A stretch of 50,821 bases of DNA from positions 1-50,821 of the forward strand of contig JARIHL010000060.1 in assembly GCA_029288315.1 (NCBI GenBank), given 5' to 3'. The notes below the pieces were generated by a model. That model was not told the origin of the DNA. It made no database searches and saw nothing but the letters and a program-made list of their open reading frames with translations. Made by a program: the position numbers and the translations under genes. This document shows positions 18,154 to 40,352 of the stretch, piece by piece. Each line of letters begins with the position of its first letter. Position 1 is the first letter of the stretch. Source of the stretch: Candidatus Saccharimonadota bacterium (GTDB lineage: Bacteria; Patescibacteriota; Saccharimonadia; Saccharimonadales; EFPC-124).

Positions 18154-19749
18154 TTAATGAGAAGCAGTGGAATTTGACCCAACAATAATAATAAAGTCTG
18201 CATCTGAGCCTACACCAGTCGGAACAGTAGGAGTAGCTTTAACATTCAAAACTTTCTCAAGTTTTTTCAACGTTTCAGGTTTTTTACCAGCGCTTTGATC
18301 AATGAGTTGGATGGGCGCAGTATTGACGGTGCTGGGGGCATTACCGGTTGTGTCGATCGTCAAGCCTTCTCGTTTTAACTCATCGGCTTTAGTTTGAGCA
18401 ACGCCTGGTGTTTCGGTGGCGTTAAGTACGGCAATGGTGGCGTTTTCTAGAAAAGCAAAGTCGCCAGTTGAGTAAGCTTTAACCACGCGCTGAATTTCGC
18501 TGTAATCAAACAGACCAGGGATTGCTTTGACGATACTCTCTCCATTAATCATGCCAGTAGTGACAAGCGGACGGTCTTTATCATTCAGTGAGATAGAACG
18601 AATATTCTCATTTTTAACATCTTGACCAAGCTTGACTAATGTCTTAATCTCTTCCGCCTCAAAGTTTGAGCGCACATTATTGCCAAGCGCATTTAATAAA
18701 TTATTGACAGCGACGGGATTAGCCAGTGTGCCTGCGCTTGCTGCTTTATCTTTAAGAGCAACCAGAATTTTGCGTTGGTAGACCTCCCGATCGAAGTTGG
18801 CTTGCTCTAGCCCATAGGTACGGCCCTCTAAGTCGGCGCCGCGTGCTCTTGCTAAGTAGAGGGCTTGTTTGCCATTGAGGGTAGCGGGGCCATTAGGGTA
18901 CTTTACGTTGTAGCAGGTATTTCTGCCTTTCGGACAATCCCAGTCAAAATTACGATCTAGGATGCCACGAGTATCAGTACTCTCAATAGTTACTGTAATA
19001 CCGCCGACGGCATCAACTGCTTCACGCAGCACCGTGTAATTAATATGCACGCTATACTGCATATCAAGGCCAAAGACTTCACCAACCTTCTGCCGCAGCG
19101 CTGTTTGCGCCGTATCTTCGCCATCTTCTTTATGGCAAAGGTAGGTAGCGTTAATTTTACCCTTATAACCACTCGGACAAGCTAGGCCATAGTCGACATA
19201 GAAGTCACGGGGGATGCTGACAAGGAAAGCATCCTTAGTTTTTTGATTAATGCTGACGATCATCATTGAATCAGTAAGATCAGCGCCGTCATGGCCGGGA
19301 TCGTCTTCGGACGTGCCAAAAATGAGAATATTGGTACGACCATTGGTATCCATTTTGAGCTCTTTGCCTTGAGATAAAATAGCATTAAGCGGATTACCTT
19401 TAAAAATTTGGTTACCAGTAATGAAAATCTTGTACGCAAAATAACCAAATATTACTGCAATAAGAAGGGCTAATACAATCAATGTGCGTTTAATTGTTTT
19501 GCGTGATGGTTTGCGAAAACTAAAGCGCCTTTTCTTGGTTTGTTGATCTTTTGAAGACTCAGGAATTTCAAGTGGCGGAAGCGTAGGCGCGCTTGGATTG
19601 TGGGCGCGTATGTTGGAGCGATCAATCGATGGTTTAACAGAGGGCAAAGAAACCGACGTATGGTTAATAGTATCAAGACGAGTATGCGCTTCAGGCCGCG
19701 ATCGCCGAGGAATAACGAAACCATCAGTGTTTAAGGGCTTTCGTATCAT
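18154..19749 (-). CDS. LytR-CpsA-Psr (LCP) family cell-envelope ligase with LytR_C domain
   Basis: 531 residues: Arg/Pro/Ser-rich cytosolic N-terminus (1-80), membrane helix about 87-110 (TLIVLALLIAVIFGYFAYKI), LCP catalytic domain about 130-400 and a C-terminal LytR_C domain (TIAVLNATETPGVAQTKADE onward). LCP hallmarks are LIFGTSEDDPGHDGADLTDS, SIPRDFYVDY, VGGITVTIES and LYLARARG. These enzymes move lipid-linked glycans such as teichoic acids or capsule to peptidoglycan. It fits the surrounding glycosyltransferases as the final attachment step. The divergent flavodoxin-like gene shares the 250-bp promoter region. Confidence 0.92.
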   Translation of the reverse strand: MIRKPLNTDGFVIPRRSRPEAHTRLDTINHTSVSLPSVKPSIDRSNIRAHNPSAPTLPPLEIPESSKDQQTKKRRFSFRKPSRKTIKRTLIVLALLIAVIFGYFAYKIFITGNQIFKGNPLNAILSQGKELKMDTNGRTNILIFGTSEDDPGHDGADLTDSMMIVSINQKTKDAFLVSIPRDFYVDYGLACPSGYKGKINATYLCHKEDGEDTAQTALRQKVGEVFGLDMQYSVHINYTVLREAVDAVGGITVTIESTDTRGILDRNFDWDCPKGRNTCYNVKYPNGPATLNGKQALYLARARGADLEGRTYGLEQANFDREVYQRKILVALKDKAASAGTLANPVAVNNLLNALGNNVRSNFEAEEIKTLVKLGQDVKNENIRSISLNDKDRPLVTTGMINGESIVKAIPGLFDYSEIQRVVKAYSTGDFAFLENATIAVLNATETPGVAQTKADELKREGLTIDTTGNAPSTVNTAPIQLIDQSAGKKPETLKKLEKVLNVKATPTVPTGVGSDADFIIIVGSNSTASH

Positions 19750-20735: not shown

Positions 20736-23700
20736 TTATTGGATAACGATAAAGTCATAGCTATATACAGTATCTTTGGTGAGCGATGCGTCAGTGCGCA
20801 ATTTAAAGCCGGTTGCTGTCTTCTCAGGGTAGACCGGTAGTTTCGCACCGGCCGCGTTCGTTGCTGTAATGCTGATGCGAGGTGTGTTAGCGTAAGCTTT
20901 GGCAAAGGTAATTTGCGCTAATTCCCCCGAGATTGCTGCCTCGGCTGTCACGGTAATGCTGCCTGCTGTGTCAGTGCCATCAATGGTGGCTGTTACGTCC
21001 TGGTGGGCGCTAATAATAGGAGTGTTACCGCCACCAACCAAGTGGCCTTCAATGCGGAGGTCTTGTTGCACGGTTAGTTCTTTGACAGTTACTTTGCCTT
21101 TGAATATGGCATCTCCAGTTACGGTTAAACGGTTGAGGGTTGTCTGGCCACTGACATTCAGGCTAGACAGGTCGGCGTTGCCACCATTTTGGATAGTCTG
21201 ATTAGCACCACCTTGTGTGCCAGCAGCCGGAGGCGCATAATAGCCAATTTCTACGAAGGTATTAATCTTGCCATTAGTACCGGTGAAGTTTTCAAGAGCA
21301 TAACCAACGATCATGCCTGGATTGGTGGCTTTCATGGCATGGCCAGGAGTAGACGAAGCCGTAAGCGGGTCGCCGATCGCGATCGCGCCATTTTCGTTAG
21401 TTACTTTGAGCGGTACGCGGCCGCTGAGGGCAATTGGCCGCGGATTTTTAACATGAGTTGCTTCTTTGACTGACTCACCGAATACTTGGTATGGGCTGGT
21501 AGAGACGATACCCATAGTGCGCCCCGATTGAGTGTTACTGCCTTTGCCGAGCACCGAGATAGTGTGGTCGACGTGCTGGCCGGTGGGTTCGCCAGTGGTA
21601 GGATTGAAAAGTTCTTCATCATAGGTAAACGTTTCATTGGTTGTCATTACGAGGTCACCAGCTTCAACGCCCTGCTTGGTTTCGTACCACTCAGCAATGT
21701 CAGAAGGAGCGGCACTACAAGCCACAATATCACGGTCTGCAAAAGTGGTAGTGGTATTAGCGCCACTGTGGCACAGGCCATTTGTGGTGGCAGTACCATT
21801 TGCATCAAGGCGGATATCGCCGTTTACCTCGAGTTCTTGACCAGCTGTAAAAGTCGTGGCGTCAGGCCCTATACCGACATTACCACCACCCGCTACTCTT
21901 ATTCGAGCAAATCCACTGGTACCGATATGAACTGGCAGATTCTCATAATTATATACATACCCTGCACCATTTAGGTCTACCCCTGTCACAAAACCATCAG
22001 TATTGGTCGTACCGGTTGTCGTGCCGACTGTAAATCGTATCAGACCGTTCGCACCGACCCCTTTATCGATTTGGACGGCGTCAACGGCTTCAATATTGTC
22101 GCCAATACCTACGTTACCGGCTGCGGTTAACTTTAATCTTACTGTTGAGTTGGTAGCAAAAAACATGGCTTGGTTTTCCCAATTCGTCAGGAAGGCGGAG
22201 CCGAATGCATCTATACCGAGTGTTGTGCCATCTAGGTTTGTCGTGCCAGTAGTGGTTCCGGCGGTAAATGATATAAATGAAGCTGTAGAAGTTCCTTGGT
22301 CAACATGTATAGCGTTGCTTGGTGCGCTGGTGCCAACACCGACAAAACCAGCGCTGGTGACTTGAAAGCCCTGGCGATGAATTCGATAATTTTGGCTGCC
22401 GACGGTTTGCGACGGAGTGACTGTTAGTGAAGTAGCGCTGGTAAAACCGGTGATGGTCGCGCTTGTACCATTGGCAAAGATAATCTTGCTGCCAATCATT
22501 GCGGCGGTAAAAGTCGTGCCACTGCCGGTAACTGTGGTGCCACTTTGGCTGGCGGTACCAGTGTTGTATTGAACAGGAGACACGCTAAATACATTATCTG
22601 GCTTTGTCGTGCCAATGCCGACATTGACCGCATTGCTCGCGGCACCTCCAAGTATGAACGTGTTGCTGGCCTGAGCCTGAGCGTACGAGCCAAGCACGGT
22701 ACTATTTTGCAAGTTGCTGAAAGTATAGAAACCGTCGAGATCATTAAAACCAGCATAATAGCCCATCGCCGTATTATTAGAGCCAGTATTATTGCCGTTA
22801 AGAGAATAGTGGCCAAAGGCTGTATTGTTAGAGCCGCTAGTATTGTTGTAGAGCGAAGCACTCCCAAAGGCCGTATTATAGCTTCCTATACTGTTATTGT
22901 TTAAAGCGTTACGGCCAACAGCTGAATTATCAACACCAGTGGTGTTGCCTTGAAGTGCGTAATTACCGATAGCGGTATTGAATTTGCCGGTCGTGTTACT
23001 GGCGAGTGAGTAACTGCCCACAGCTGTATTGCCGTAGCCACTGGAGTCGCCAGAGTTAGGTATATTATAGCGGCCAGAAGCAGCACCGAGGAATATATTA
23101 TGGGTGTCCCACTTACCAGTTCTAAATAACTGAGCATTAACACCGGTAGAGTCTTGTAAAGCGAGTGTTGCTTCGTAGACGGTAAGTTGTTTTACCGAGA
23201 CAGCCGAGATTGTCCCATTGAAATCAGAAGTTGGTGTAAAGGTAAGATTACCAGTGCCTGACGTATAGACTACTTGCGAATGGGTAGTATTGCTGCTCAC
23301 CCCATTACCACTCACTCCACCGATGCCAGGTGTTAATGTGCCAGTAGTAGTGCTGGCGAGCGTGAAGGTGATTAAATAGCCAGTATTGGCAGCAACGGTG
23401 AGCGGTGTAGTGGGTGAGAGCGCGGTTGTACCACTGGTGTGGGTGGCGCTGCTTGCACCTAAGGTCCAGCCTGTTCCCGTCCAGCTAGTACTAAAGTTGT
23501 TACTGGTGATCATTTCACTGCCGAGTGTAGCGCTGTCGGCACCAGCCCTGGCCTGCGTCTGACTGTTAATAGTATCAACTTTTAATACAGGGGTTCCGCC
23601 TGCATTCTGTACTTGGAACGCGTTGCTACCATTAGTGCTCGATTTGGCAATGATACTTGCTGAAGCTGAGTTAGTGGAGAGATTAAGATTGCCCGTACCA

Positions 23701-26700
23701 GCTTGGATGGTAGTTGTGCTAGTGCTATTGGTGCTACCCAGTGTGACTGTTTGAGCGGCGGCACCGGTACCGATGTTGATGGTGTGAGCAATGGCATTAT
23801 TACCCATATTAATTGTCGTCGCATTAGCATTGCCAATCGCGACAGTGCCTGCACCTCCGGTGTCGAGATCTAATGTATTGGTACTTGCTGCTCGTACAAA
23901 AAGATTGCCGCTGTCTGTGCTCCAGGTGCTCGTGGCATGGGCGGTGATATTTAAAGCCTGACTGGTTGCTGGTTGAATAAGTGCGCTGGTGGCGGCAGTG
24001 AAAGTCAAGCTGTCTGCTTCTAAGACATCGCTACCGTTAATTTTGTAGGCTGACCCGCTGGAAATATTAACATCACCAGCTACATCAAGTTTAGAATTTG
24101 CCGAAGCCAAACCAATGCCGACATCACCCCCATCTTCGATGATAAAACGGGTAGCATTTGCATCTTCGTCAATCACCTGGAAGATGTTATCGTCACCTGA
24201 TCCCCAAAGTATCAGGCCGTCATCACTGATCTTAAAACCACCAGCGTCAGTAGTGCCACCCCATTGCATGACGATACCCTGAACGTTAGTGCCATTACCA
24301 TAGTCAGCAATAGTTGTCAGTGAGGTGCCATTCAGGCCGCCGCGCGCGCTTGTGTCTGGTTGCGTGCCCACAAATAATTTCGCATTACCAGTAAAGACGG
24401 TTTCAGTGGCGACAAAGCGAAGCTTTCCATCTACATGCAATGCTTCGCTTGGCGTGAGGTTACCGATGCCCACACGACTATTGGAAGTATCAACGGTCAA
24501 AACTGTGGTCGCGTCTGCCTTTTGTATTTGTAGAGCTGTCGTAGAAGTATTTTTAAAGAGTGCGGCGCCCGTCGGGGCAATACTGAAGACATCAGTGCCG
24601 TCATCTTGAATGGCAAATCGACCGTTTGAGCCACACGATGTATCACATTGCAGATCGATCAACAAATTAGAATCAGTTGCAGTATCGGCCAAGGCGATAC
24701 TGACGCTCCGGGCATCGGTGGTAGTAATTGTATTGCCTGCATCATATGCTTGTTGGAGCGTTACACTAGTAGGATTGCTCGCACAGGTCGCTAATTGATT
24801 TGAGCCATTGCGGCATACAGCTGTTGAGCCAGCGCTGCCAAGGGTCGTAACGGCGACAGTGCCTGTAAAGCTTGCGGCACTGGAGATAGTCTGGCCGTTG
24901 ACAGTGCCAATATTCACTAAGTTACCGGAGTTATCAATGCGCGTCGTACTATTGGTTTGCAGGGTACCACCACTTGAGTTAATTGCGCCGGTTACACTTA
25001 AAGTGCCCGTGACAGCTGTATCTTCGTTCAAGTTGATAGCAGTGGCGGTGCCGCCAATATTTAAAGCTACTGCAGTCGCAGCATCAAGCAGTGGCGTCAG
25101 CAGTGATGTGTTTGCTCTTCCACTGCCACTAATACGAAAATCTGCAGTCTGATCGCTTGCGCTTTGATTTTGAATATAACTTCCAGAGCCACTTGTTGTC
25201 GCAAAACCACAACTGGTAGAATTTTGCAAACAGATAGTACCTGCTTCGTTTGGCAACAAGATGGCACGGTTTGCGGTAGGAGTAGTAGAGCTGAGGGTGA
25301 TAACGTTGCCATTGGTTGCATTCCTAAATAACATAGTACCGGTGAGCGTGCTCCCCTGGCCTAGCTCTAGCTCTCCGTCAATTGTATCAACAGTTGCGAC
25401 ACTGGTACCAGCGGCGTTAAGTATTTGGAAAGAGGTGGTACCATTGACGTTATTTTGAAAAATGGCTGCATTAGCATTCACTGTTAAGCCACCACCTAGG
25501 TTTTGTAAGAAGAGTGTGGCAACACCGCCATTATTGCGCGCAATAATCTCATTGTCATCAAATGCGAGGTTAGAGGTGTTATCGGCACCGATCTGTATCG
25601 CCCCAGTCGCTGAGCTTAAAGTGGCATCCGACCCTACAGTAGGTACTCTCACTAATGTATTGGTCGTGTCGACGCTAAAGAGTGAGGCGCCAGTGCTATT
25701 TTGTATTTGAAAAGCTGTCGTCGCGTTACTTGAGTTCCGGAAAATAGCCGCGCCACTGCTGCCAACACTAAAGAGCGGATTAGAGACGCCGTTGGCCTTG
25801 ACTTCTAAAATAGTAGCGCTTTGGCTCGCTGCTCCCTGTATAGTAGCGGTGACACTGCCAGCTGCGGCGCTGACGACATTAAAATTAGCAGTTTGAGGAG
25901 CGGTACTATTCTGGATGTAATTATTTGAACCAGCCGCTGGTGTACAACCACTTGACGTACAAATGACGGTTCCACCGATTCGGTACTGGGTAGAAGTATT
26001 GACATCGCCGGTCACATCAAGTGGGTAACCCCCAGTGGCGTTATTGCCGATACCAACATTAGCCGCTCCGCCATTGTTTTTAGCTGTTAAAAGATTCAGA
26101 CTATTGGCTTGCAAAGCCACATTGTCGCCGCTGGTTTTAAGCAAGCTGGTGGTATTAGAACCGTCCCATGACAGGCCAAAGATTTGATTTTCGTTAGGGC
26201 TAATTATCCCTAAGGTTGGTTGATGGGCGCCACTGCGTGCATCAAATAAGGTAAGAGCTCGAGTGGTTGAGGCGGCTGTCGAGGGTAAGCCCATGGCTAC
26301 TAACTGACCAAAAGCAGCTGGATTATAAAGTGGAATATTAATCTTTGTTTGCACAGTAGTACCTAAGGGGGTGATGAAGTTATCTATTTGTGTGGCACTC
26401 CCTGAGAGTTTAAGAGCGCCTTTAATCTCAAGGCCTTCATTGGCGAGGCTAGGTGTATTATTGCTGCCAAGATTGATGCCGACTCTGCCATTTGCTGAAT
26501 CCACAGTGAAGACATTATTACCAAGTGCTGTTTTAACATTAAAGACACTAGTGCCATCGACTGTTGGTTGGAAGAGGGCAGCCCCTTGTACGGTTAAAGT
26601 TTTGCCACTCGCAAGTGTTGTATTTTGGTTCAAGTTAATCACCGTTGCATTTGTGGTGCCAATATTTAAAGCTACTGCTGTGGCTGTATCTAACAGAGGA

Positions 26701-29700
26701 GTGAGTAACGACGTGTTAGCTCTTCCGGTGCCGCTGATACGAAAGTCAGCTGTCTGATCTGCAGCACTTTGATTTTGGATGTAATTACCCGATCCAGAGC
26801 TGAGCGCAAACCCACAATTCGTAGAGTTTTGTAAACAGATAGTTCCAGACTCATCTCCAAAAGTAACCGTACGATCAGCAGTGGGGTCGGTAATAACCAA
26901 AGTAGTTTCATTGGCGTCATTGGTAAGACCTTCAAAAACGAATGGATTACCACCTGAGATTGTTGCCAAAACGGTGAGAGAGTCGGTACTTACATCCCCG
27001 AGTGTGGCACTACCATTAACGAGGAGGTCATTGAGTGTGGTGAGGCCAGTTACTCCCAATGTACCGCCGACAGTCGTATTGCCACTAATACTTGCCGTGC
27101 CAGCACTGATAGCACCAGTCGTGCTAATAGCGTCCGCACCAGTATCGATCGAACCGAAACCAGAGGTGATTGAACCTACACCTAGCGCACCTGTACCTGT
27201 TATTGCAGTCGCAACAGCGTCATTCGTGTCAACTAAAGCGACATCGTGGCCGTCGAGTAGGTCTAGTTCGGCCGCTGAAATGGTTGCACCGCTGGTTAAG
27301 ATATCATTAGAGCCAATATTGACAGCAGTGCCAATTTCGGCATCACTGACATCGATAGCCGTGGTGAGGCCACCACCTGCTGATTGGATCTTCAAGCCGA
27401 TTGGCTGGGCTCGGTCTGTATCAAGATTATCAATGAGAGCCAGTTGAGCAGGGTCGGCAGTACCTACGCCATCAGCACGACTGACTGCAAAATAGCCAGT
27501 GCTACCAGTAGCAACTGACACGTTAAAGAGCGAATCAGTCGTCGTGTTGGCGAGTGTAACATTGAGGTTGCGCGCATCAGTTGTCGTCAAAGTATTACCA
27601 GCATCGTAGGCGCTTTGCAATGTCGCGCTGCTACCACCCGCGCCCCCATCGCAGTTATCAAATATCAACTGATTACCAGAGCCTTTCTTGATACACTGAT
27701 TCGCTGCACCTGAAGAAGTTGGCAGCACAAAAGTAAGGTTGCCCGTAGAGTCACCAGCCTGGATAGTGGTGGTTTGGCCATTGCCGTCATGTAAAACGAA
27801 CGAACCAAGCTGCGACGTGGTGCCAGCGGTTACATCTCCACCTTGCACAATCAAGTCAACGCTCGTCGTGACGCTCGTACCGTCATCAGTAATGGTTGAG
27901 TCGCCAATGGTACTACCGGTGGCCGTAAACTTAGACAGCCGGTTGTTGGTGCCACTGCCGGTCACACCTCCACCAGAACCAGCACAGTTACCAGTTGATA
28001 GACAAATTGTGGCATTAGCACCGCCTGGGTCGGGAAGGGTATAGATAGTATTTTGTCCTAAAGCCGCAACTTGCAAAGTGCCAGTATTTGATGAGCCGTC
28101 ATTCAGTACCAGTGATCCACTTTGCGAGCTGGTACCCACATTAACGGTGCCGCCTTGTAAAGTTGCATTGCCACTTGCCGTAAGAGAAACAATATTCACT
28201 AAATTGCCACTCGTATCAATCCGCGTCGTGCCGTTTGTTTGTAATACGCCTCCACTGGTATTGATAGTGCCGGTTACGCTCAATGTGCCAGTAATCGTTG
28301 TATCTTCGTTAAGATTAATAGCTGTTGCTGTACCACCTATAGTTAACGCCACCCCGGTGGCTGTATCGAGTAATGGAGTTAATAACGATGTATTAGCGCG
28401 TCCAGTTCCGCTAATCCGGAAATCAGCCGTTTGGTCGCTAGCACTTTGATTTTGGATGTAATTACCGGAGCCGCTCGTTAAAGCGAATCCACAATTCGTA
28501 GAATTTTGCAGACAAACTGTGCCACTTTCATTACCGAGTGTGACAGTGCGATTAGCGGTAGGGTCAGTGATGGCAAGGGTTGTCGTAAAGGCGTCGTCTG
28601 TGCCACCCTGGAAAGCAAGCGGCGAGGCGCCCAGTAATTGTGAAGTGATAGTTAAACGATCAGTGGTCGCATTACCTAAAATGGTGTCGCCATTGGCGGT
28701 CAGACTACCATTCAATGTGGTCGTACCGCTCGTATTAAGCGTGCCGGCATTTATTGCACCAGTCGTGCTAATAGTGTCCGCACCAGTATCAATTGAGCCA
28801 AAACCAGATGTTATTGAACCAGAGTTGAGCGCGCCCGTGCCAATGATAGCCGTACTAACAGCGTCATTCGTATCAACTAAGGCGACATCATGACCATCGA
28901 GCAAATTAAGCTCAGCCGAAGCAATACTCACTCCACCCGAAAGAATATCATTCGAGCCAATATTAATAGCATTGACAATTTCGGCATCCGATACATCAAC
29001 TCCGTCAGTGATCACACCACCGGTTGCAGCCGCTACTGTTAGGCCATTGGCCAAGGTTAAGTTCGTGTCTTGCATATCAATGAGCACTAATTCAGTTGGC
29101 GGAGTGGTACCCGCACCGTCAGCCAAAATGAACCGGCTTTGCGACGTGCTGCCAGTAGCTGTGGTAATGGTTAGATTACTGTCGGTCGCGGTGTCGGCAA
29201 GGGTGAATGCGAGATCGCGAGCATTTGTGGTTGAGATAGTATTACCGTTCGTGTAGGCGTCCTGTAAGGTGACACCTGTTCCGGCGCCGCTGGTGTCGAG
29301 GTCAGTTATCGTGCCGTTTTGACATTTTTTAATGCGGCCATCGCTAGAATTCGCCCAGACACGATAATCGCCAGCGGCACAGGCCGGGTTGCCCGCTTCT
29401 TCAGCAAATTCCAAATAGTCATTGCCTGAGCCATTACCAACGGTAATTTGCTCGTTAAAAGTGGCTGAACCTTGGATAGTGGTTTGTATACCTGCGTGGG
29501 CTATGGTGAGGGCATTGGCATTCGTTGTGCCAATGCTGATGCCCGCTGCACCTCCAGCATCAAGTGTCACAGTAGTGGCACCGCCACTTTGTAAAGCCAG
29601 GGCGCCCGAGCCAGTAATAGCACCAATATTCACAAGGTTACCAGAATTATCAACCCGCGTGGTGTTGTTGGTTTGTAAGCTGCCGCCGCTCGAATTGATA

Positions 29701-32700
29701 GTACCCGTGACACTGAGGGTGCCGGTGATTGCCGTTGACTTGTTTAAATTAATAGCCGTGGCGTTGGTAGTGCCGATATTCAATACCGCTGCGCTCGCGG
29801 TATCCAATAGCGGAGTTAAGACTGCTGTGTTTGCTCGCCCTGTGCCGCTAATCCGGAAATCAGCTGTCTGATCTGCAGCACTTTGATTTTGGATGTAATT
29901 ACCCGATCCAGAGCTGAGCGCAAACCCACAATTTGTCGAATTCTGCAAACAGAGAGTGCCTGTTTCGTCAGGCAAGGAGATAGTACGGTTCGCAGTTGGG
30001 TCAATCACGGCAATAGTCGCAGTGAAGCTATTATCAGTTGCTCCTTGAAAGACAAGTGGTGAAGCGCCTTGGATTTGGGCGGTAACAGTTAGGCGATCGG
30101 TAGCCGCGTTACCAATGGTCGTGTTACCGTTAGCCAAAAGGTCGCCACTGAGTGTGCTGACACCGGTAATCCCCAGCGTGCCGCCAATGCTCGCATTACC
30201 GCTTGTCGTTACGTTTCCAATATTGATTAGGTTGCCGGAACTGTCAATTCGAGTCGTAGAATTAGTTTGCAGCCCACCACCGGTCGTATTGATAGTGCCC
30301 GAACTCGTAATGGTCGTGCCACCCGAGATAGCACCTGCAAGCGTTACATTGCCAATATTAACCAAATTGCCGCTATTATCAAGACGTGTGGTTGAGTTAG
30401 TTTGGATCGCGCCACCAGTACTGTTAATGTTGGCAGCGGCAGTTACTGTGCCAGCACCGCTCACGTCAAAATTGGTAAAGTCGATTGCGCCGGTTGTGCC
30501 CACGATATCGTTGCCGCCCACATTCAGGGCTGTCACGATATCCGCATCGCTGGCATCAATAGCCGTGGTGATACCGCCACTAGCTGCCTGAAAGTTGAGG
30601 CCGATGGGCAGTGCACGGTCAGTATCAAGATTATTGATGAGCAGCATTTGAGCAGGATCAGCCGTGCCAGTGCCATTAGCCCGGCTAAATGATACAAAAC
30701 CGGTGCTACCATCAGCCACGAGCAAGTCAAAATTACTATCAGTTGCTGTGTTGGCAAGCACAATGTCAATATCTCGTGCATCAGTGGTAGTGATGCCATT
30801 GCCATTATTGTAAGCAGTTTGGAGGCTGGCACTGCTACCACCGGCACCGCCGTCGCAATTGTCAAACACGAGCTGGTTACCACTGCCTTTTTTAATACAC
30901 TGATTGGCTGCACCAGCCACGGTCGGCAAGATAAAGGTGAGGTCGCTACTCGTATCACCTGATTGCAGAGTAGTGGCCTGACCATTACCATCATGCAGAA
31001 CAATGGAACCCAATTGGCCAGTGGTTCCCAGGGTTAAATCACCACCTTGAATAATAGCGTCGACACTTGTTGTAACAGTTACGCCGTCATCAGTGATAGT
31101 GGAGTTATTGATAGCTTGCGAGCCGGTGAACTTAGCGAGCCGGTTGGCTGTGCCACCTGCTGTTGTCACGCCACCGCCAGAGCCAGCACAGTTGCCGACA
31201 GTAGTACAAATATCGTAGGTACCCGCAATTGCCGTTGCAAAGCGATACGTCACGTTTGCGGTGGGCGTCTGGAAGCTGATGGTTGTGCTGTTAATACCAC
31301 TTGTCGCACTGAGCGTGGTTGAAGTATTACCTTGCAAGACCAGTGCTTGGCCAGTGGCGCCAATGGTTAGGGTTGAGCTCGGGGTGATAGTGTTGGTGTT
31401 GATACCAGCAAAGGTAGGCGTCGCGCTCGCGTTGATATTTTGGATAGTGTTAACAATACCACTGGCGACACTGAAATTGGTACTGCTAAACTGAGCGATA
31501 CCTTTGGCGGTCGTTGAAGCATCGTCAATAGTAATCGTCGTGCCCAGACCGCTCGAGTTTGCAATGCTCAGGCCGCCTGTTAAGCCATTGAGTGAAGTAA
31601 CTCCACCGCCCCCGCCGCCGGGGCAGATCTGAAAGCTTGGCGCGCCCGCAGTCGAGACTAAGCAGAGTCCCGCCGCCCCAGCGGTGACGGTGGCCAAAGC
31701 GCCAGTACCCTGGCCAATCACTACGCCATTGTTGGTAAGTGAGCTGACACCTGTCCCACCCTGTAACACACTGAGTGCCGTGGTTAGGCCAGAAAGGGAA
31801 GTGATATCAGAGTTGGCGCCACTGGCTGCCGCACCTAAATTAGCCCGTGCCCCAGCACCGGTGCCAGCACCGGTGCCCCCACCACCTACGGATAAGGGGG
31901 TGCCCAAACTCAAAGCACCACTCACAGAAAGATCGCCATTCACGGTAACGACGGTACCACTTTCACTCAGCAACGAATCGGCAATAGTTTGTACTCCCGT
32001 AAATTTGGCTATTCGACCAGCCGTTCCGCCTGGGCTAGCTACGGTGCCGCCACCTCCGCCGCCAATATCACTAATAGTGATCGTGCCATTTGTTTTGGTA
32101 ACCACCAGATTGGCAGTGCCAGCTACGACATCTAGTACGCCCGTGTTATTGAGTATTCCGTTGCTTATAGAAAGGCCGCTACCCAGATTAATGATGCCAC
32201 TTTGGCCACCAAGCGCTAGCACGCCAGTGTTGGTCAATGTTGTGCCATCAATGGCCATACCGCCACCGCTTGTGAGGGTAACATCACCGCTTTGACCTTG
32301 TAGTGATAGAACGCCAGTATTTGATAGGCTACCGCCCGCAGCATTCAAGCCATTACCGAGAGTTATGTTGCCGCTGAGGCCAGCTAAACTAAATACCACA
32401 TTTTCTCGTCCTAGTAAGTCAACAAATTCGTCCCCGTTGTAATATGAGAGGACATTTTTACTTTGATCATAGTACATTTGTCCGGCAATAGCTCCCGTTG
32501 GTTGGCTTGTCGGAACCAGCACCAGCGAATTATTGACCCGAAGCTGACCATTAATACTTAACGTTCGGTCACCTTCAACTGTTACGCTGCCAATACTGGC
32601 TAGTTCACCAAGTGGTAACTGCTGAGTATCAAACTGGCCTGCCGGGTCAACTGCTTCAGATTGTCTGGCATTATTTGATTGAATAGTGCGCTGTACAATG

Positions 32701-33011
32701 GATGCAGCAAACACGCCACCACCCAAAACGAGCAATAGTAAGGCGATGAAGGCGTATTTCTTAATGATTGGCGGTATGTGACGCTTGCGACGCATTGATG
32801 GCGGTGGTGGCGGCACAGAATTGGTTGGAGGGGCGGGGGATGTCGGAGTGGGTATGTAGGCAGGTTGCGTGGGTGTGATTTGAGCAATGGGCTGTTGGGG
32901 TAGTGGTGCTTGAGGAGCTGTGGATTGAAGGGTATTTTGAAAAGAGGCTGACTGAGTGGTGGGGGCGCCAGCACCTTGAGCACCAGTGTTACGGACCTGT
33001 AATTCTTCCAC
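20736..33011 (-). CDS. Giant repetitive surface protein, 4,091 residues
   Basis: A single open frame of 12.3 kb. Residues 1-72 are Pro/Gln/Thr-rich and cytosolic, RRKRH precedes one membrane helix (about 84-107, YAFIALLLLVLGGGVFAASI), and about 3,980 residues lie outside. Most is tandem beta-helix-like repeat with recurring LTITSQ..., SGNYIQNQSAADQTADFRIS, NLNEDTTITGTLSVTG and TTRIDNSGNLVNIG, each block about 250-300 residues. Near residues 3,340-3,450 is a YadA-head-like run (NTAVGSYSLASNTTG, NTAIGNYALQGNTTG). About residue 3,770-3,930 is a compact domain (GVEAGDLV, RVPLKVTNENGAIAIGDPLT, GHAMKATNPGMIVGYALENF). The last 130 residues form another beta domain. Likely an adhesin or stalk for host contact. 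The start is GTG 33011; no better ATG exists before the membrane helix. Confidence 0.85.
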   Translation of the reverse strand: MEELQVRNTGAQGAGAPTTQSASFQNTLQSTAPQAPLPQQPIAQITPTQPAYIPTPTSPAPPTNSVPPPPPSMRRKRHIPPIIKKYAFIALLLLVLGGGVFAASIVQRTIQSNNARQSEAVDPAGQFDTQQLPLGELASIGSVTVEGDRTLSINGQLRVNNSLVLVPTSQPTGAIAGQMYYDQSKNVLSYYNGDEFVDLLGRENVVFSLAGLSGNITLGNGLNAAGGSLSNTGVLSLQGQSGDVTLTSGGGMAIDGTTLTNTGVLALGGQSGIINLGSGLSISNGILNNTGVLDVVAGTANLVVTKTNGTITISDIGGGGGGTVASPGGTAGRIAKFTGVQTIADSLLSESGTVVTVNGDLSVSGALSLGTPLSVGGGGTGAGTGAGARANLGAAASGANSDITSLSGLTTALSVLQGGTGVSSLTNNGVVIGQGTGALATVTAGAAGLCLVSTAGAPSFQICPGGGGGGVTSLNGLTGGLSIANSSGLGTTITIDDASTTAKGIAQFSSTNFSVASGIVNTIQNINASATPTFAGINTNTITPSSTLTIGATGQALVLQGNTSTTLSATSGINSTTISFQTPTANVTYRFATAIAGTYDICTTVGNCAGSGGGVTTAGGTANRLAKFTGSQAINNSTITDDGVTVTTSVDAIIQGGDLTLGTTGQLGSIVLHDGNGQATTLQSGDTSSDLTFILPTVAGAANQCIKKGSGNQLVFDNCDGGAGGSSASLQTAYNNGNGITTTDARDIDIVLANTATDSNFDLLVADGSTGFVSFSRANGTGTADPAQMLLINNLDTDRALPIGLNFQAASGGITTAIDASDADIVTALNVGGNDIVGTTGAIDFTNFDVSGAGTVTAAANINSTGGAIQTNSTTRLDNSGNLVNIGNVTLAGAISGGTTITSSGTINTTGGGLQTNSTTRIDSSGNLINIGNVTTSGNASIGGTLGITGVSTLSGDLLANGNTTIGNAATDRLTVTAQIQGASPLVFQGATDNSFTATIAVIDPTANRTISLPDETGTLCLQNSTNCGFALSSGSGNYIQNQSAADQTADFRISGTGRANTAVLTPLLDTASAAVLNIGTTNATAINLNKSTAITGTLSVTGTINSSGGSLQTNNTTRVDNSGNLVNIGAITGSGALALQSGGATTVTLDAGGAAGISIGTTNANALTIAHAGIQTTIQGSATFNEQITVGNGSGNDYLEFAEEAGNPACAAGDYRVWANSSDGRIKKCQNGTITDLDTSGAGTGVTLQDAYTNGNTISTTNARDLAFTLADTATDSNLTITTATGSTSQSRFILADGAGTTPPTELVLIDMQDTNLTLANGLTVAAATGGVITDGVDVSDAEIVNAINIGSNDILSGGVSIASAELNLLDGHDVALVDTNDAVSTAIIGTGALNSGSITSGFGSIDTGADTISTTGAINAGTLNTSGTTTLNGSLTANGDTILGNATTDRLTITSQLLGASPLAFQGGTDDAFTTTLAITDPTANRTVTLGNESGTVCLQNSTNCGFALTSGSGNYIQNQSASDQTADFRISGTGRANTSLLTPLLDTATGVALTIGGTATAINLNEDTTITGTLSVTGTINTSGGVLQTNGTTRIDTSGNLVNIVSLTASGNATLQGGTVNVGTSSQSGSLVLNDGSSNTGTLQVAALGQNTIYTLPDPGGANATICLSTGNCAGSGGGVTGSGTNNRLSKFTATGSTIGDSTITDDGTSVTTSVDLIVQGGDVTAGTTSQLGSFVLHDGNGQTTTIQAGDSTGNLTFVLPTSSGAANQCIKKGSGNQLIFDNCDGGAGGSSATLQSAYDAGNTLTTTDARNLNVTLANTTTDSLFNVSVATGSTGYFAVSRADGVGTADPAQLALIDNLDTDRAQPIGLKIQSAGGGLTTAIDVSDAEIGTAVNIGSNDILTSGATISAAELDLLDGHDVALVDTNDAVATAITGTGALGVGSITSGFGSIDTGADAISTTGAISAGTASISGNTTVGGTLGVTGLTTLNDLLVNGSATLGDVSTDSLTVLATISGGNPFVFEGLTNDANETTLVITDPTADRTVTFGDESGTICLQNSTNCGFALSSGSGNYIQNQSAADQTADFRISGTGRANTSLLTPLLDTATAVALNIGTTNATVINLNQNTTLASGKTLTVQGAALFQPTVDGTSVFNVKTALGNNVFTVDSANGRVGINLGSNNTPSLANEGLEIKGALKLSGSATQIDNFITPLGTTVQTKINIPLYNPAAFGQLVAMGLPSTAASTTRALTLFDARSGAHQPTLGIISPNENQIFGLSWDGSNTTSLLKTSGDNVALQANSLNLLTAKNNGGAANVGIGNNATGGYPLDVTGDVNTSTQYRIGGTVICTSSGCTPAAGSNNYIQNSTAPQTANFNVVSAAAGSVTATIQGAASQSATILEVKANGVSNPLFSVGSSGAAIFRNSSNATTAFQIQNSTGASLFSVDTTNTLVRVPTVGSDATLSSATGAIQIGADNTSNLAFDDNEIIARNNGGVATLFLQNLGGGLTVNANAAIFQNNVNGTTSFQILNAAGTSVATVDTIDGELELGQGSTLTGTMLFRNATNGNVITLSSTTPTANRAILLPNEAGTICLQNSTSCGFATTSGSGSYIQNQSASDQTADFRISGSGRANTSLLTPLLDAATAVALNIGGTATAINLNEDTAVTGTLSVTGAINSSGGTLQTNSTTRIDNSGNLVNIGTVNGQTISSAASFTGTVAVTTLGSAGSTAVCRNGSNQLATCASNPTSVTLQQAYDAGNTITTTDARSVSIALADTATDSNLLIDLQCDTSCGSNGRFAIQDDGTDVFSIAPTGAALFKNTSTTALQIQKADATTVLTVDTSNSRVGIGNLTPSEALHVDGKLRFVATETVFTGNAKLFVGTQPDTSARGGLNGTSLTTIADYGNGTNVQGIVMQWGGTTDAGGFKISDDGLILWGSGDDNIFQVIDEDANATRFIIEDGGDVGIGLASANSKLDVAGDVNISSGSAYKINGSDVLEADSLTFTAATSALIQPATSQALNITAHATSTWSTDSGNLFVRAASTNTLDLDTGGAGTVAIGNANATTINMGNNAIAHTINIGTGAAAQTVTLGSTNSTSTTTIQAGTGNLNLSTNSASASIIAKSSTNGSNAFQVQNAGGTPVLKVDTINSQTQARAGADSATLGSEMITSNNFSTSWTGTGWTLGASSATHTSGTTALSPTTPLTVAANTGYLITFTLASTTTGTLTPGIGGVSGNGVSSNTTHSQVVYTSGTGNLTFTPTSDFNGTISAVSVKQLTVYEATLALQDSTGVNAQLFRTGKWDTHNIFLGAASGRYNIPNSGDSSGYGNTAVGSYSLASNTTGKFNTAIGNYALQGNTTGVDNSAVGRNALNNNSIGSYNTAFGSASLYNNTSGSNNTAFGHYSLNGNNTGSNNTAMGYYAGFNDLDGFYTFSNLQNSTVLGSYAQAQASNTFILGGAASNAVNVGIGTTKPDNVFSVSPVQYNTGTASQSGTTVTGSGTTFTAAMIGSKIIFANGTSATITGFTSATSLTVTPSQTVGSQNYRIHRQGFQVTSAGFVGVGTSAPSNAIHVDQGTSTASFISFTAGTTTGTTNLDGTTLGIDAFGSAFLTNWENQAMFFATNSTVRLKLTAAGNVGIGDNIEAVDAVQIDKGVGANGLIRFTVGTTTGTTNTDGFVTGVDLNGAGYVYNYENLPVHIGTSGFARIRVAGGGNVGIGPDATTFTAGQELEVNGDIRLDANGTATTNGLCHSGANTTTTFADRDIVACSAAPSDIAEWYETKQGVEAGDLVMTTNETFTYDEELFNPTTGEPTGQHVDHTISVLGKGSNTQSGRTMGIVSTSPYQVFGESVKEATHVKNPRPIALSGRVPLKVTNENGAIAIGDPLTASSTPGHAMKATNPGMIVGYALENFTGTNGKINTFVEIGYYAPPAAGTQGGANQTIQNGGNADLSSLNVSGQTTLNRLTVTGDAIFKGKVTVKELTVQQDLRIEGHLVGGGNTPIISAHQDVTATIDGTDTAGSITVTAEAAISGELAQITFAKAYANTPRISITATNAAGAKLPVYPEKTATGFKLRTDASLTKDTVYSYDFIVIQ

Positions 33012-33526: not shown

Positions 33527-33817
33527 CTATTCGGTATTTTCAGCCAAATAGGCTGGCTCAATGTCGACAAACAGTACTACAGTGTTGTTCGTGACCTTGA
33601 TGATACCTTTGGTGATTGGAAAAGTAAAGTTCTGAAAACCATTATTAACAACGATCTGGCCTTCGTTGAGTAGTGAGAAGAAATTTGCATGATTCTCCAA
33701 AATATCAAAGGGCCCAACCTCATTGGTGGCAGAAACGACTGTTGCCATTCCGTTGTACAGCGTCTGGGTAGGGGACATAACTTTCACATGGATTTTGGCT
33801 TTATCAGGCAGCTTCAT
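33527..33817 (-). CDS. atpC: F-type ATPase epsilon-like subunit, short form
   Basis: 96 residues from ATG 33817, with GGAG 6 nt upstream. The sequence IHVKVMSPTQTLYNGMATVV, NEVGPFDILENHANFFSLL and FPITKGIIKVTNNTVVLFVD is the N-terminal beta-sandwich of epsilon, which binds gamma and the rotor ring. The C-terminal helical hairpin of about 40 residues that normally inhibits ATP hydrolysis is absent. A longer start at 33889 would pass into the inverted repeat and is rejected. It is separated from the beta gene by that repeat. Confidence 0.85.
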   Translation of the reverse strand: MKLPDKAKIHVKVMSPTQTLYNGMATVVSATNEVGPFDILENHANFFSLLNEGQIVVNNGFQNFTFPITKGIIKVTNNTVVLFVDIEPAYLAENTE

Positions 33818-33833
33818 GTTAAACTCCAGATTC

Positions 33834-34013
33834 GAGACGCCGCAGCAGTGCAGCTGGCAGGCAAAAATCCAGACAAACTGGGGTGGCACGCGGCGGGGCA
33901 GCTCCCAAAAATGTTTTTTCTTGTATTCAAGAAAAAAATTTTAGGGGCGGACCGCGTGACAGGACCCCTTCTTGCAATAGATTTTTGCCTGCCAGCTGCA
34001 CTGCTGCGGCGTC

Positions 34014-34015
<2 letters not shown>
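33834..34015. repeat. Core-2 inverted repeat inside the F1-like ATPase operon
   Basis: Perfect 36-bp arms (33834-33869 and 33980-34015; outer end GAGACGCCGCAGCAGTGC) surround a 110-nt core. The core has its own dyads: GGGGTGGCACGCGG near CCGCGTGACAGGACCCC, and AATGTTTTTTCTTG around TATT with CAAGAAAAAA. About 97 nt of the core match the copy at 45082-45188 almost base for base, while the arms do not. It separates beta and epsilon, the only pair in the operon from b onward that does not overlap. Confidence 0.92.
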
Positions 34016-36180
<2,165 letters not shown>

Positions 36181-36184
<4 letters not shown>

Positions 36185-37608
36185 GCTGGGGCCGCTCCCA
36201 TAGTAACCACCTGCAGTAACTGTCTAGCCAAGGCGTCAATGTCAGTATCTTGTTGTATGGACGGCGCCAGGTCTCTCGCTTGTTTTTTGAGCAGCGAAAT
36301 ATTGATTTTGTGTTGACCGCCACTGACAAGAATTGTTTCTAGGATTAACTGTTGCTCAATAAGCGAAAAGAGTTCGCTCGAAGTCTGATGAAAAGCGTCA
36401 TGTATCAATCTGCCAAACTCCAGTGAGAGTTTAGTCTCAGGCGTCATATCAGAGCCAAAATGGGCGAATTCAGCCGCTTGACGGTAATCGGCAAGTTTTT
36501 TAAAAAGAGTACTTGAAATTACTTTTTGCCGCGGTGTTTGGGCTCGCCCGCCCACGCGGGATACCGATAAGCCGGTATTGACGGCTGGCCGGATATTTTG
36601 TCGGAAGGTATTGAGATCAAAAATAATCTGACCGTCGGTGATTGACATAATACTGGTTGGCAAATAGGCTGTAATATCATCACCAGGGGTAACCACTGTT
36701 GGCAGCGCGGTCAGTGTTTTGCCGTTTTCAGACAGTTTGCCGGCTCGCTCAAGCAATGAGGAATGGGCAAAAAACATATCACCCGGATATGAATCACGAC
36801 CAGGGCTGGTTTGTGAAAGCAGAGAAACTTCGCGGTAAACTTTGGCATGCGACGATAAGTCGTCATATATAATTACCACGTCACGGCCGTTATGCCAAAG
36901 GTATTCGGCAATTGAGCAGCCAACATACGGTGCAATATACGACTGAGCAAGCGAGTCAAAAATATTGGCAATCACGACAATGCTACTGTTAATTGCGCCG
37001 CTTTCATTAAGCACCCGGATGGTTTGTTCAATCTCAATACGTCGTTTACCAATCAGTACGTACACCACAATACGGTCGAGATTAGTTTGATTAATGCCGA
37101 GTTGTAGCAAAAAACTACTTTTACCTGATTTAGTATCTCCCAAAATGGCAATACGTTGCCCTAAAACAATGGGAAAAAGTGTGTCAACGATGATAACTCC
37201 AGAAGGTAGCTGATCGTTCAACAGATTACGTTCATGAATCCCCGGTGCTTTGTTGTAGATCGGCCAGGTTGCTTCAAGACGTATCGGACCCTTCGTATCA
37301 AGTGGTTGGCACAGTGGTGTGATAATTCGGCCAATCAAGGCATCGCCGACATCAGTTGTAAAAGTATTATTGGCGAGCACCACAAATTCACCAAGTTTTG
37401 TGGCTTCGGTTTCAAGATTAAGTACCAATACGACATCTTCGCCGACTTCACGCACCATACCACGCTTACCGGATTCAAACATAATTAAGGCGCCAATCGC
37501 CACACCATCCAAACCGCGCACACTGACTAAATATCGTTCAACACCAACAACCTCGCCGGTCGGTAACCCATTTGAAACAAGTTGCTGGAAGGCTGAGTTG
37601 TCATACAC
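36181..37608 (-). CDS. atpA: F-type ATPase alpha-like subunit with short N-terminus
   Basis: 475 residues from GTG 37608, whose GTGTATGA overlaps the stop of the delta gene. The frame is open to 37728, but only inside delta. Walker A is GDTKSGKSS in place of the usual GDRQTGKT. VIIYDDLSSHAKVYREVSLL, SPGRDSYPGDMFFAHSSLLE, TDGQIIFDLNTF and the Arg-finger region NTGLSVSRVGGRAQT are conserved. The N-terminal helix that binds delta in ordinary alpha (about 20-25 residues) is reduced to roughly 15 residues, so stator contacts may differ. Length is below the usual 500-515. Confidence 0.92.
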
Positions 37609-38110
37609 TGGCAAAAATCTCCGCGATACGATATTTGTTGCCGAGCAATTGACGGCGGAAGGAAAAATCATATACGCCCGAGCCAGTTTGAAGGATAATA
37701 CCGCCGCCCATATCGGTACGGGTAACAAAGGTGAGAAAAGTATGTGGATGCACTTCGGAGCGAAACCAAACAGTCAGTTGCCGCTTAAACGTCCGATTTG
37801 GCAGGGCTGGCAAAGTGACGTGGACTATTGGCGCCTTATTGCGGATAAGTTCAAGCGCATGCAGTAATGATTCTGCCTTTGCCTGATTGCCGGGTGTCAT
37901 GCCGGCACCATGAAATACGCCAAGCAGGAGAGCTGATATATGAGGCATGTCGGCGGGTAACTGACTATTCGTAGCCTTTATCTTAATGGCCTGGTTGCGC
38001 AAAATACTACTATAGTCGTGCAGCTCAAGCATGATTGCGCTCAATTGATCAACCGAGTAGAGGTCGACGGGCAGTCTCAAGGCTTCGGCCGTTTTTGGTG
38101 TGGCGGTCAT
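37601..38110 (-). CDS. atpH: F-type ATPase delta-like stator subunit
   Basis: 169 residues. The C-terminal block DMGGGIILQTGSGVYDFSFR followed by RQL matches the typical GGxxxxxGxxxxDxSxxxxL end of AtpH/OSCP. The N-terminal helical bundle is short and divergent (VDQLSAIMLELHDYSSILRN). Delta links the top of alpha3beta3 to the b stalk. Overlaps b by four bases and alpha by eight. Confidence 0.82.
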   Translation of the reverse strand: MTATPKTAEALRLPVDLYSVDQLSAIMLELHDYSSILRNQAIKIKATNSQLPADMPHISALLLGVFHGAGMTPGNQAKAESLLHALELIRNKAPIVHVTLPALPNRTFKRQLTVWFRSEVHPHTFLTFVTRTDMGGGIILQTGSGVYDFSFRRQLLGNKYRIAEIFASV

Positions 38111-38727
38111 GATAGAACATCCCGCTTAATATCTGTTTTATGCTGTTCCAGGGCGGCAAAGATGTAGGTCGATTGAGCACCAAGATCAACTTGGCTGCCG
38201 AGGCATTCGGTGAGATAACTTGACACAACATCATTGAGGCGAACATTAAATTGATCCATGCGTTTTTCCCATTCTTTCGCTACTTCTCTGTCGAGATGTT
38301 CAAGAAGCCGAATTTTTTCTTGGTCAAGCTCTTTTTGAACTTTCGTAAATTCACTAATACTCTGATCTCTCAATGCTTGCAAGCTCACTTGATATTTTTC
38401 GAATTCTTGAGCCAACTGCATGCTAGTCATATCATTGATGTCAGCTGTAATTTGATCAACGGTATTGTTGAGCGATTGTTGAAGGCGTTTGGCTGCTTCC
38501 TGCCCGGCGTACATAAGGTGTTGCCGAGTTTCTTTGCTGACCTCGCCCATATCCATTTCACTCAGGACGCGGGCATTTTCAACGTGCACTTCATACATTT
38601 TTGAAGTAGTTAATTGTCGTTGTCGCAATTTTTGTTCAAACAAAGTAGAAAGCCATACCAGTCCGAGGCCATTGAGTGCAGCAATCACGACCAACCCTAG
38701 CACTAAAATGAGCTGCAACGAATCCAT
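38107..38727 (-). CDS. F-type ATPase b-like peripheral stalk protein
   Basis: 206 residues: one N-terminal membrane helix (residues 4-27, LQLILVLGLVVIAALNGLGL), then about 150 residues of charged helix suited to a coiled coil (QHLMYAGQEAAKRLQQSLNN, SEFTKVQKELDQEKIRLLEH, VAKEWEKRMDQFNVRLNDVV). It ends in a small helical part that would contact delta. Position between the hairpin protein and delta is where atpF sits in normal operons. Sequence similarity to AtpF is low, so the assignment rests on topology and order. Confidence 0.72.
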   Translation of the reverse strand: MDSLQLILVLGLVVIAALNGLGLVWLSTLFEQKLRQRQLTTSKMYEVHVENARVLSEMDMGEVSKETRQHLMYAGQEAAKRLQQSLNNTVDQITADINDMTSMQLAQEFEKYQVSLQALRDQSISEFTKVQKELDQEKIRLLEHLDREVAKEWEKRMDQFNVRLNDVVSSYLTECLGSQVDLGAQSTYIFAALEQHKTDIKRDVLS

Positions 38728-38743: not shown

Positions 38744-39601
38744 TTACGTTGTTAAGATCAAATATATCGTAATAATCATAAGCAGTAAAATGCCAAGGGC
38801 TGCGGCGCCGACTTCAAGCAGGCTTTTATGGACCGCTTGTTCTGATAGCGGGTTACGACCAATTGAGATAATACTCGATTGAACTGATGAATAAAGTAAA
38901 ACTCCAATACATATAAATCCAGCTAATAATACGAGCAGAGCAAGCAAGACGCGTGTGGTTGGAACTTCACGGCCAGCTACTGAATTGGCGATCTGTCTTA
39001 GAAAGGCTGGTAGAAATGCGCTTTCTTGATCTTCGGGCGCAGCATGGTAGGTGACATTTATTTGTAAGGGCAGTGTGCCAGCCCGGACAGTTTGGGATTT
39101 ACCATTTTTGTCGGTGATGGTGAGTTCACGTGTTTGAATATTTTTAAAGTCCTCCTGAGCGGTACCAACTACTTGAGAGCTATCAGTGGCTTTCATACCA
39201 ACTCCATTTACCGGTGAAGCGGTGATTTTATCGCCAGTCTTTATATCGCCATTAATATTGCTAACGAGGGTTGGTGTGATACCGCTAATGACGACCTGAA
39301 CTTCAGTGGCATTATTTGAGAGGGTTACCAATGGTTTATCACCAATCACGCCAACTAATTGTTCTACTCTGTCGGTGTTAGCTAATTGGACATTTCCCTT
39401 ATTAGCAGGTTCTAGGCTGACCAGCGCTCCACTAGTGATAGTGGCTTCGTTCGTCTGAAAGCCCTGAGAGATAGCAACCGTATTTTGAGCCTGCAGCGGC
39501 CAAGCAAAGGCAACAATAATAAACAGCGCGCTTAAAACAGCGAGCCTAACTCTCTGGTAGTGATCTGGAGCGAAATGAATCCGCTTATACCCACCGATCA
39601 T
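38744..39601 (-). CDS. Signal-peptide-bearing protein with c-subunit-like hairpin, first gene of ATPase operon
   Basis: 285 residues, not a standard ATPase subunit. Signal peptide 18-39 (AVLSALFIIVAFAWPLQA). Extracytoplasmic region 40-188 with two beta-like halves: GALVSLEPANKGN...QLVGVIG and NINGDIKTGDKITASPVNGV, then MKATDSSQVVGTAQEDF. Then helix about 217-240, a tight loop with IGRNP (247-251) and a last helix about 262-285 (EVGAAALGILLLMIITIYLI). The helix-RNP-helix layout resembles ATPase subunit c, but the residue 18 positions after the RNP proline, normally Glu/Asp for ion binding, is Leu269; only Glu263 is near. The ectodomain resembles the late domain of the giant surface protein. 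TATAAT lies 8 nt before the ATG. Confidence 0.7.
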   Translation of the reverse strand: MIGGYKRIHFAPDHYQRVRLAVLSALFIIVAFAWPLQAQNTVAISQGFQTNEATITSGALVSLEPANKGNVQLANTDRVEQLVGVIGDKPLVTLSNNATEVQVVISGITPTLVSNINGDIKTGDKITASPVNGVGMKATDSSQVVGTAQEDFKNIQTRELTITDKNGKSQTVRAGTLPLQINVTYHAAPEDQESAFLPAFLRQIANSVAGREVPTTRVLLALLVLLAGFICIGVLLYSSVQSSIISIGRNPLSEQAVHKSLLEVGAAALGILLLMIITIYLILTT

Positions 39602-39791: not shown

Positions 39792-40352
39792 ATGGATTTT
39801 AGAAGTCGTAGCAATCAACCGCAACCTGCGCGACCTGCCGGACAAGCAGCTCGCCAGAGCTATGAAGAAAATACTAACAATGGGAATAGTAACGGAAATG
39901 GAAGTATGCACATGAATACGCCGCGTCCTGATAACAAGCGTCTATTAATGATAGCTGGGGTAGCACTTGTAGTAATAGTTCTGCTCGTCTTTGGCTTGCT
40001 CTTTGCTAAAAACAAGTTCATGGGTGTAGAAAATGAAATTAAGAAAGATAAATTCCAGGCTGTTTTCCTAACTAATGGCCAAGTCTACTTCTGTAAATTA
40101 GCACAGATCGAACACGGCTATGCAAAATGTCAAAATATCTATTATCTACAGGTTCAACAAGCCGTCCAGCCTGCCGATAGTAAGGATAAAAAAGATGAAC
40201 AACCACAAGTTTCTCTGACGAAGCTTGGCAATGAATTGCATGGGCCAGAAGATTCAATGTATATTGCGCGTGATCAAATTCTCTTCTGGGAAAACCTGAA
40301 GGATGATGGCAAAGTAGCCCAAGCAATTAAAGAGCATCAAACCAAGAAGTAG
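39792..40352 (+). CDS. Single-span membrane protein, unknown
   Basis: 186 residues. A 48-residue Gln/Asn/Gly-rich flexible cytosolic N-terminus is followed by a membrane helix (RLLMIAGVALVVIVLLVFGL) and an extracytoplasmic part DKFQAVFLTNGQVYFCKLAQ, AKCQNIYYLQVQQ, with a Lys/Asp-rich linker and a helical end. I have seen similar small proteins in CPR genomes but know no function. A GGAGCAATTTGCTCC hairpin and AGGTGG site precede the ATG, and two strong stem-loops follow the gene. Confidence 0.7.
   Translation: MDFRSRSNQPQPARPAGQAARQSYEENTNNGNSNGNGSMHMNTPRPDNKRLLMIAGVALVVIVLLVFGLLFAKNKFMGVENEIKKDKFQAVFLTNGQVYFCKLAQIEHGYAKCQNIYYLQVQQAVQPADSKDKKDEQPQVSLTKLGNELHGPEDSMYIARDQILFWENLKDDGKVAQAIKEHQTKK

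Follow-up and report, generated by a model that had tools for sequence, protein, structure and literature searches.

An F1-type ATPase operon headed by a membrane protein with a predicted subunit c-like hairpin, and its linkage to surface fibre genes in Saccharimonadia

The operon and its neighbours

The window, by which we mean the whole stretch of 50,821 nucleotides analysed here, carries on its minus strand a tightly packed operon in the order c*-b-delta-alpha-gamma-beta-epsilon, with the gene for a giant fibre-like surface protein beyond its end (Table 1). The first gene, which we term c*, encodes the 285-aa protein that the initial annotation had taken for the ATPase itself; this was a misassignment, as c* is not the ATPase but stands at the head of an F1-type ATPase operon. 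The only genes between c* and epsilon are b, delta, alpha, gamma and beta. The distance given for the giant gene (0.7 to 6 kb) must be corrected to 5.7 kb from c* and 0.5 kb from epsilon, the last gene of the operon.

Table 1. Coordinates of the operon, the giant gene and their features within the window
Feature	Position	Strand	Basis
c* (285 aa): signal/TM helix, extracellular beta-domain, C-terminal subunit c-like TM hairpin (predicted)	38744..39601	-	
c* beta-domain (residues 40-190), phage cement/tail-fibre-type	39032..39484	-	BLASTP 3e-7; hhalign 2e-30; Foldseek
c* two-helix hairpin (residues 213-285), predicted F-ATPase subunit c homologue without carboxylate	38747..38965	-	Foldseek, hhalign
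GRNP loop (residues 248-251)	38849..38860	-	R and P invariant in alignment A1
b-like stator subunit (206 aa), N-terminal TM helix and coiled coil	38107..38727	-	conserved second gene
delta/OSCP (169 aa)	37601..38110	-	hhalign to canonical delta 3.4e-8, 95%
F1 alpha	36181..37728	-	PF00006 1.5e-64
F1 gamma	35312..36184	-	PF00231 2.8e-30
F1 beta, Walker A GGAGVGKT and GERIRE	34014..35315	-	TIGR01039 464 bits, above cut-off
F1 epsilon, N-terminal beta-sandwich only	33527..33889	-	PF02823 1.1e-12
Giant surface protein, fibre-like, 4091 aa, with a single TM helix near residue 78	20736..33011	-	
c*-type beta-domain of the giant protein, residues 3760-3935	21207..21734	-	BLASTP, genome search, hhalign, model
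Giant C-terminal ~150-aa domain, common to mini-fibres beside c*F1 elsewhere	20739..21188	-	HMM matches

The gene content is that of an F-type catalytic head, comprising alpha, beta, gamma and epsilon with the Walker A motif, the catalytic Glu motif and the Arg finger. These motifs are intact: GGAGVGKT and GER[IV]RE in beta, and in alpha the VSRVG finger, in 63 of 63 sequences checked. Alpha scores 1.8e-120 against the NCBIfam F1 alpha model, under its cut-off; its called TTG start is probably too early, with similarity beginning only at residue ~57. Epsilon varies from 82 to 135 aa across loci and matches the N-terminal beta-sandwich alone. Of the stator subunits, b is kept in 82 of 83 complete loci and delta likewise. 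The b subunit has only a weak profile match to canonical b (5.6e-4) and is otherwise identified by its position, TM helix and coiled coil. A TM helix is missing from the b-like subunit in one clade (18/105, with the complete genome TM7i and loci L061, L062, L063, L075, L079, L165 and L175 among them), where the stator must be held in another way.

Several neighbouring genes deserve mention in their own right. Divergent from c*, at 39792-40352 on the plus strand, lies a gene for a 186-aa protein with a single TM helix and no Pfam family, and in 24 loci a relative of it stands near c*, in one orientation or the other. On the far side of the giant gene, downstream of it at 18154-19749 on the minus strand, a LytR-CpsA-Psr protein is encoded (PF03816, 1.3e-20) that possibly attaches cell-wall polymers. 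Some 8 kb downstream of c* in L048, L139, L175 and 63 other loci there is a tandem family of secreted proteins (~180 copies in the 66 loci) with N-termini of the SSxxYQ type and ends like TYTSTLTYICTPTF; 31 loci also have a WxLIP_PGBD-like protein (PF06030, 1.7e-4). It is possible that these proteins, too, are surface components of the system.

The c* hairpin and ion binding

In the structural model of c*, long TM helices at residues 215-249 and 251-284 flank the loop SIGRNPLS, giving two helices joined by an R-[QN]-P loop as in F-ATPase subunit c. The cytoplasmic loop of subunit c is the part that contacts gamma and epsilon, and the canonical c of this very genome carries the identical GRNP sequence. 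Foldseek superposes the hairpin on the Chloroflexus subunit c (9itt_I) with a TM-score of 0.86 (by target length) and an rmsd of 1.4 A over 67 columns. Profile-profile comparison (hhalign) with 30 canonical c sequences of the same class, chosen with the requirement that they contain an acid, gave 6.1e-7 for all c* and 2.6e-7 over 54 columns for c* of other classes, with 0.37 for the reversed control. Outside the loop the sequence similarity is modest. The c* family profile, searched against PDB sequences up to an E-value of 5, had ATP synthase subunit c as its sole and weak match (E 1.8), and Pfam ATP-synt_C recognizes the hairpin of one genome (G050) at E 0.007. For c* itself, neither Pfam nor NCBIfam holds a family. 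On these profile and model comparisons we identify the predicted hairpin as a homologue of F-ATPase subunit c; that it assembles into a ring is inferred. A TrbC/VirB2-like pilin, which one of 38 members matches (TrbC, E 0.19), was rejected as the source of the hairpin because loop, fold and operon position all indicate subunit c.

What the hairpin has lost is the acidic residue. No Asp or Glu was observed at positions P+14 to P+24 in any of 121 c* sequences, nor in 22 from other classes (0/143 in total), while all 14 canonical c sequences, picked by loop motif alone and not by the acid, possess one. We likewise detected neither subunit a nor a canonical c in the 121 locus stretches. A complete ordinary F-ATPase is encoded elsewhere in this genome; its a and c lie on contig C85, and that a is the only one in the genome. 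A ring of c* subunits would thus be unable to carry ions, judging from sequence, because it has no carboxylate and no subunit a to work with. One variant c* has a loop closer to the E. coli type: in L067 (1413-2255, plus strand) it reads ARQP, a mini-fibre gene (described below) adjoins, and the stretch contains no F1 genes.

The shared domain and the linkage to fibre genes

It had been proposed from the sequence that c* and the giant protein share a domain, and that the match was too good for chance. This proved to be so. The peptides originally paired lie at residues 112-152 of c* and ~3775-3926 of the giant protein (21,234-21,689, minus strand), and c* residues 40-189 and giant residues 3760-3930 form a single common domain. 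BLASTP of c* 103-189 against giant 3860-3928 returns an E-value of 3e-7. With c* as the query, six-frame searching across the genome (1.2 Mb, 94% complete) found the giant as sole match (7.9e-7), and the reverse search with the giant domain found only c* (1.8e-7). The condition named beforehand as refuting the idea, that the domain be very common in this genome, is thus not fulfilled: the search finds two copies, in c* and the giant alone. Queried against 7,754 ORFs from 121 locus stretches, the giant domain retrieved, besides itself, c* proteins only.

Profile-profile alignment extends the similarity to 134 columns (hhalign probability 99.8%, E 2e-30) and takes in the weaker first half, in which GALVSLEP...VGVIG of c* aligns with GDLV...MGIVS, a resemblance already suspected. 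This E-value is not wholly independent, as homologues on the giant side were collected with the c* profile; the pairwise tests are independent. Structure comparison agrees with the profiles in finding the same domain. AlphaFold2 models of c* and the giant domain (pLDDT 87.9 and 89.2) retrieve through Foldseek identical PDB folds, namely 8pkh, 8hdt, 6qvk, 5wk1, 9kzj and 1td0, which are phage cement, decoration and head-fibre proteins; phi29 gp12 tail-spike structures are also among the fold matches. Viral models of tail-fibre and preneck-appendage modules match the c* ectodomain with E-values down to 1e-9, and Pfam adds matches to Peptidase_G2 and XM1 gp53, with Peptidase_G2 intramolecular-chaperone models matching 7 of 20 relatives (best 1.3e-6). 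The domain can therefore be described, on the strength of its modelled fold, as phage cement/tail-fibre-like: the fold is clearly similar, and the Pfam matches mostly fall under the curated cut-offs. A search of IMG/VR with c* returned no relative, and c* is thus not recognisable as a phage gene.

Sharing of the domain is an observation from sequence and structure prediction, but by itself it proves little about a common system because the domain is a common one, found in numerous giant surface proteins of the phylum; among the sampled loci, moreover, a giant that bears it occurs only in this window. Gene order and co-occurrence make a much better case. The N-terminal region of the giant protein matches fibre genes that stand beside c* in other genomes. 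Some of these fibres are long or giant proteins, but the commonest form is a mini-fibre of 300-420 aa, in which a disordered N-terminal tail and a single TM helix are combined with beta repeats and the C-terminal domain of the giant. Among non-redundant complete F1 loci, a fibre gene was observed in the fetched stretch in 71 of 83 and was absent in 12. Where c* stands without F1 genes, a fibre gene lies beside it in 11 of 12 loci, and the genomes with such copies of c* often possess a further, F1-linked copy (G116, G210). Fibre and c* remain together across genera, with or without F1, in same-strand and convergent arrangements alike. The co-occurrence check that had been suggested points the same way: across 393 genomes of the class, c* is present in 141 of the 143 that match the fibre profile (Fisher p 1e-72). 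These counts rest on a separate C-terminal HMM, the giantC HMM having drifted into c* through the shared domain, and neither they nor the p-value are corrected for relatedness, so that the p-value serves only as a guide. The original idea that a rotary ATPase and a surface fibre belong to one system is hence supported, mostly by evidence that was not available when it was put forward. In L050 (5089-11710) a fibre gene is paired with a c* that has no F1, and type IV pilus genes (PilB, PilC, pilin-like) come next, an arrangement that recalls reports of F-type ATPases next to pilus genes in Omnitrophota.

Within Saccharimonadia the operon is widespread, and it also occurs in other classes of Patescibacteria. 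The c* family is found in 172 of the 393 class genomes. In a scan of genome contigs with an 8-row c* alignment, named matches are to Candidatus Saccharibacteria/Saccharimonadia, including the complete genomes TM7i (CP075337, L175) and YM_S32_TM7_50_20. The beta subunits of these operons form one group apart from the canonical beta of the same class (support 99/97). In another class, four loci of one family (L259, L260, L261, L262) have two different c* genes flanking one F1 operon, which suggests a mixed ring or alternative rotors.

A possible drive for surface fibres and its relation to known systems

What might such a machine do? Probably, this second ATPase burns ATP to move or build a fibre and not to pump ions. 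We put at about even the chances that it is a dedicated F1 motor in which a ring that moves no ions passes force through the membrane to the fibre. In such a motor, alpha3-beta3 with gamma and epsilon would hydrolyse ATP while b and delta keep the head stationary; the rotor would terminate in a ring of c* subunits, and the turning ring would turn an extracellular crown of phage-fibre-type domains. The crown could then act on the adjoining single-TM fibre, which would probably be a trimer, the giant here and a mini-fibre in most relatives, so that the fibre may be rotated, pulled or reset when the cell meets another cell or a surface. Conceivably the arrangement is V-ATPase-like, with the TM helices of the fibre within the ring. 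What sequence and structure prediction show is the set of genes without an a, the homology of the hairpin to subunit c, its missing carboxylate, the intact catalytic motifs of F1, the domain in common and the link with the fibre; that c* forms a ring, that this ring rotates and that c* touches the fibre are inferred, as are the direction of force and the biological role. We propose only tentatively, and with rather more doubt than conviction, that a c-ring has been turned into a drive shaft across Patescibacteria, ATP inside the cell spinning phage-derived domains that rotate or drag an adhesive fibre.

Other explanations must be set against a motor. Since delta and b are retained and 148 of the 172 c* genomes also carry subunit a (present in 215 of the 393), the complex could in principle be an ion pump or ATP synthase that borrows a, and perhaps a mixed set of c subunits, from the ordinary F-ATPase. 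We hold this to be very improbable, given that no c* has the carboxylate and no locus holds a or a canonical c. Borrowing of a in trans is, moreover, disfavoured by the presence/absence pattern across the class, because 24 c* genomes have no detectable a, several of them (G001, G003, G011) being at least 99% complete. It could also be argued that the beta-domain is a mobile phage-like module, which many giant proteins of the phylum and phage proteins carry and which in the sampled loci is found in this giant only, and that ATPase and fibre are mere neighbours without a joint function. Such indifference is hard to reconcile with a pairing of fibre and c* that persists across genera and arrangements, with and without F1, and with the near-constant presence of c* in fibre genomes, and we consider it improbable.

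A closer competitor, unlikely in our estimation yet deserving more credit than either of these, is a machine for assembly or reset: c* would provide a platform aiding trimerisation or release of the fibre, and F1 would supply conformational cycles, not sustained rotation. The kinship of the ectodomain to chaperone/autocleavage domains of phage tail fibres, seen in the intramolecular-chaperone matches among domain relatives and the fold matches to the phi29 gp12 tail-spike, fits such a role, as does the fact that c* accompanies fibre genes even without adjoining F1; resetting of a surface complex has, in addition, been proposed for the mycoplasma Type 3 ATPase (PMC12994834). The full rotor-stator set would be superfluous for a simple chaperone, however, and the retention of b, delta, gamma and epsilon together is our reason for favouring a motor.

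The significance of a motor of this kind would lie in two open questions. Patescibacteria are tiny and mostly host-dependent bacteria, and it remains open how they grip or move on their hosts, and why fermenters without a respiratory chain keep F-type ATPase genes. A second F-ATPase, linked with a surface fibre and unable to pump ions, gives one testable answer and, if true, would be a case of a c-ring serving force transmission and not ion flow. The locus is present in TM7i, for which a complete genome is public. There is also a warning to be drawn, as counts of alpha and beta genes in Saccharibacteria may mistake the c*F1 machine for ATP synthase.

Gliding and antibody cleavage have been connected with F1-like ATPases of the mycoplasmas, of Types 2 and 3 (PMC3369863, PMC11864180, PMC12994834), which drive surface machines (PMC11864180, PMC12994834). 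Both types are without b, delta and a recognisable c, and both include a 12-TM protein. The Type 3 F1-like X0, associated with MIB-MIP (PMC3369863, PMC12994834), resembles c*F1 in having extra alpha, beta, gamma and epsilon without a and in its linkage to a surface protein system; its protein 5 is laid out as c* is, a signal peptide and an ectodomain being followed by two TM helices at the C-terminus. Type 3 has no homologue of b, delta or c and possesses a 12-TM protein, whereas in c*F1 both b and delta are present along with a recognisable c hairpin, and a 12-TM protein is missing. The Type 2 gliding motor of Mycoplasma mobile (G1-ATPase; PMC11864180) is, as the head of c*F1 would be, an F1 derivative thought to pass force to large surface proteins, but it differs in being a dimeric twin motor with other partners. 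Alpha and beta of the window score 258 and 376 bits against NCBIfam MSC_0619 and MSC_0618 (cut-offs 520 and 570) and 308 and 350 bits against the gliding models MMOB1660 and MMOB1670 (cut-offs 600 and 850), well below threshold in every case. Hence c*F1 may work like the mycoplasma types, but it is not a member of those families as they are defined.

In the part of the Omnitrophota account available to us, a beta subunit from Saccharimonadia is said to cluster with a non-respiratory F-type ATPase of Omnitrophota, for which attachment or motility is proposed (PMC10066038). This ATPase and c*F1 probably belong to the same broad clade, although the sequences have not been compared, and neither a c* subunit nor a fibre partner is described in that part of the account, which likewise mentions no lost carboxylate and no absence of a. 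With canonical F1Fo the operon shares the gene order c-b-delta-alpha-gamma-beta-epsilon, the F1 motifs and the GRNP loop; unlike it, the operon has no a, a c* without the carboxylate and with a secreted domain, an epsilon without C-terminal helices, and a beta that falls into a separate group. Phage tail-fibre and cement domains (Peptidase_G2, XM1 gp53, phi29 gp12 and gp8.5) have the fold of the c* ectodomain and the giant domain, and c* stands apart from them in being fused to a membrane rotor hairpin. Set against these systems, and as far as the open-access literature goes, what is new here is the c* subunit, the loss of both ion binding and subunit a, the breadth of the arrangement across the phylum, and the fibre as its partner.
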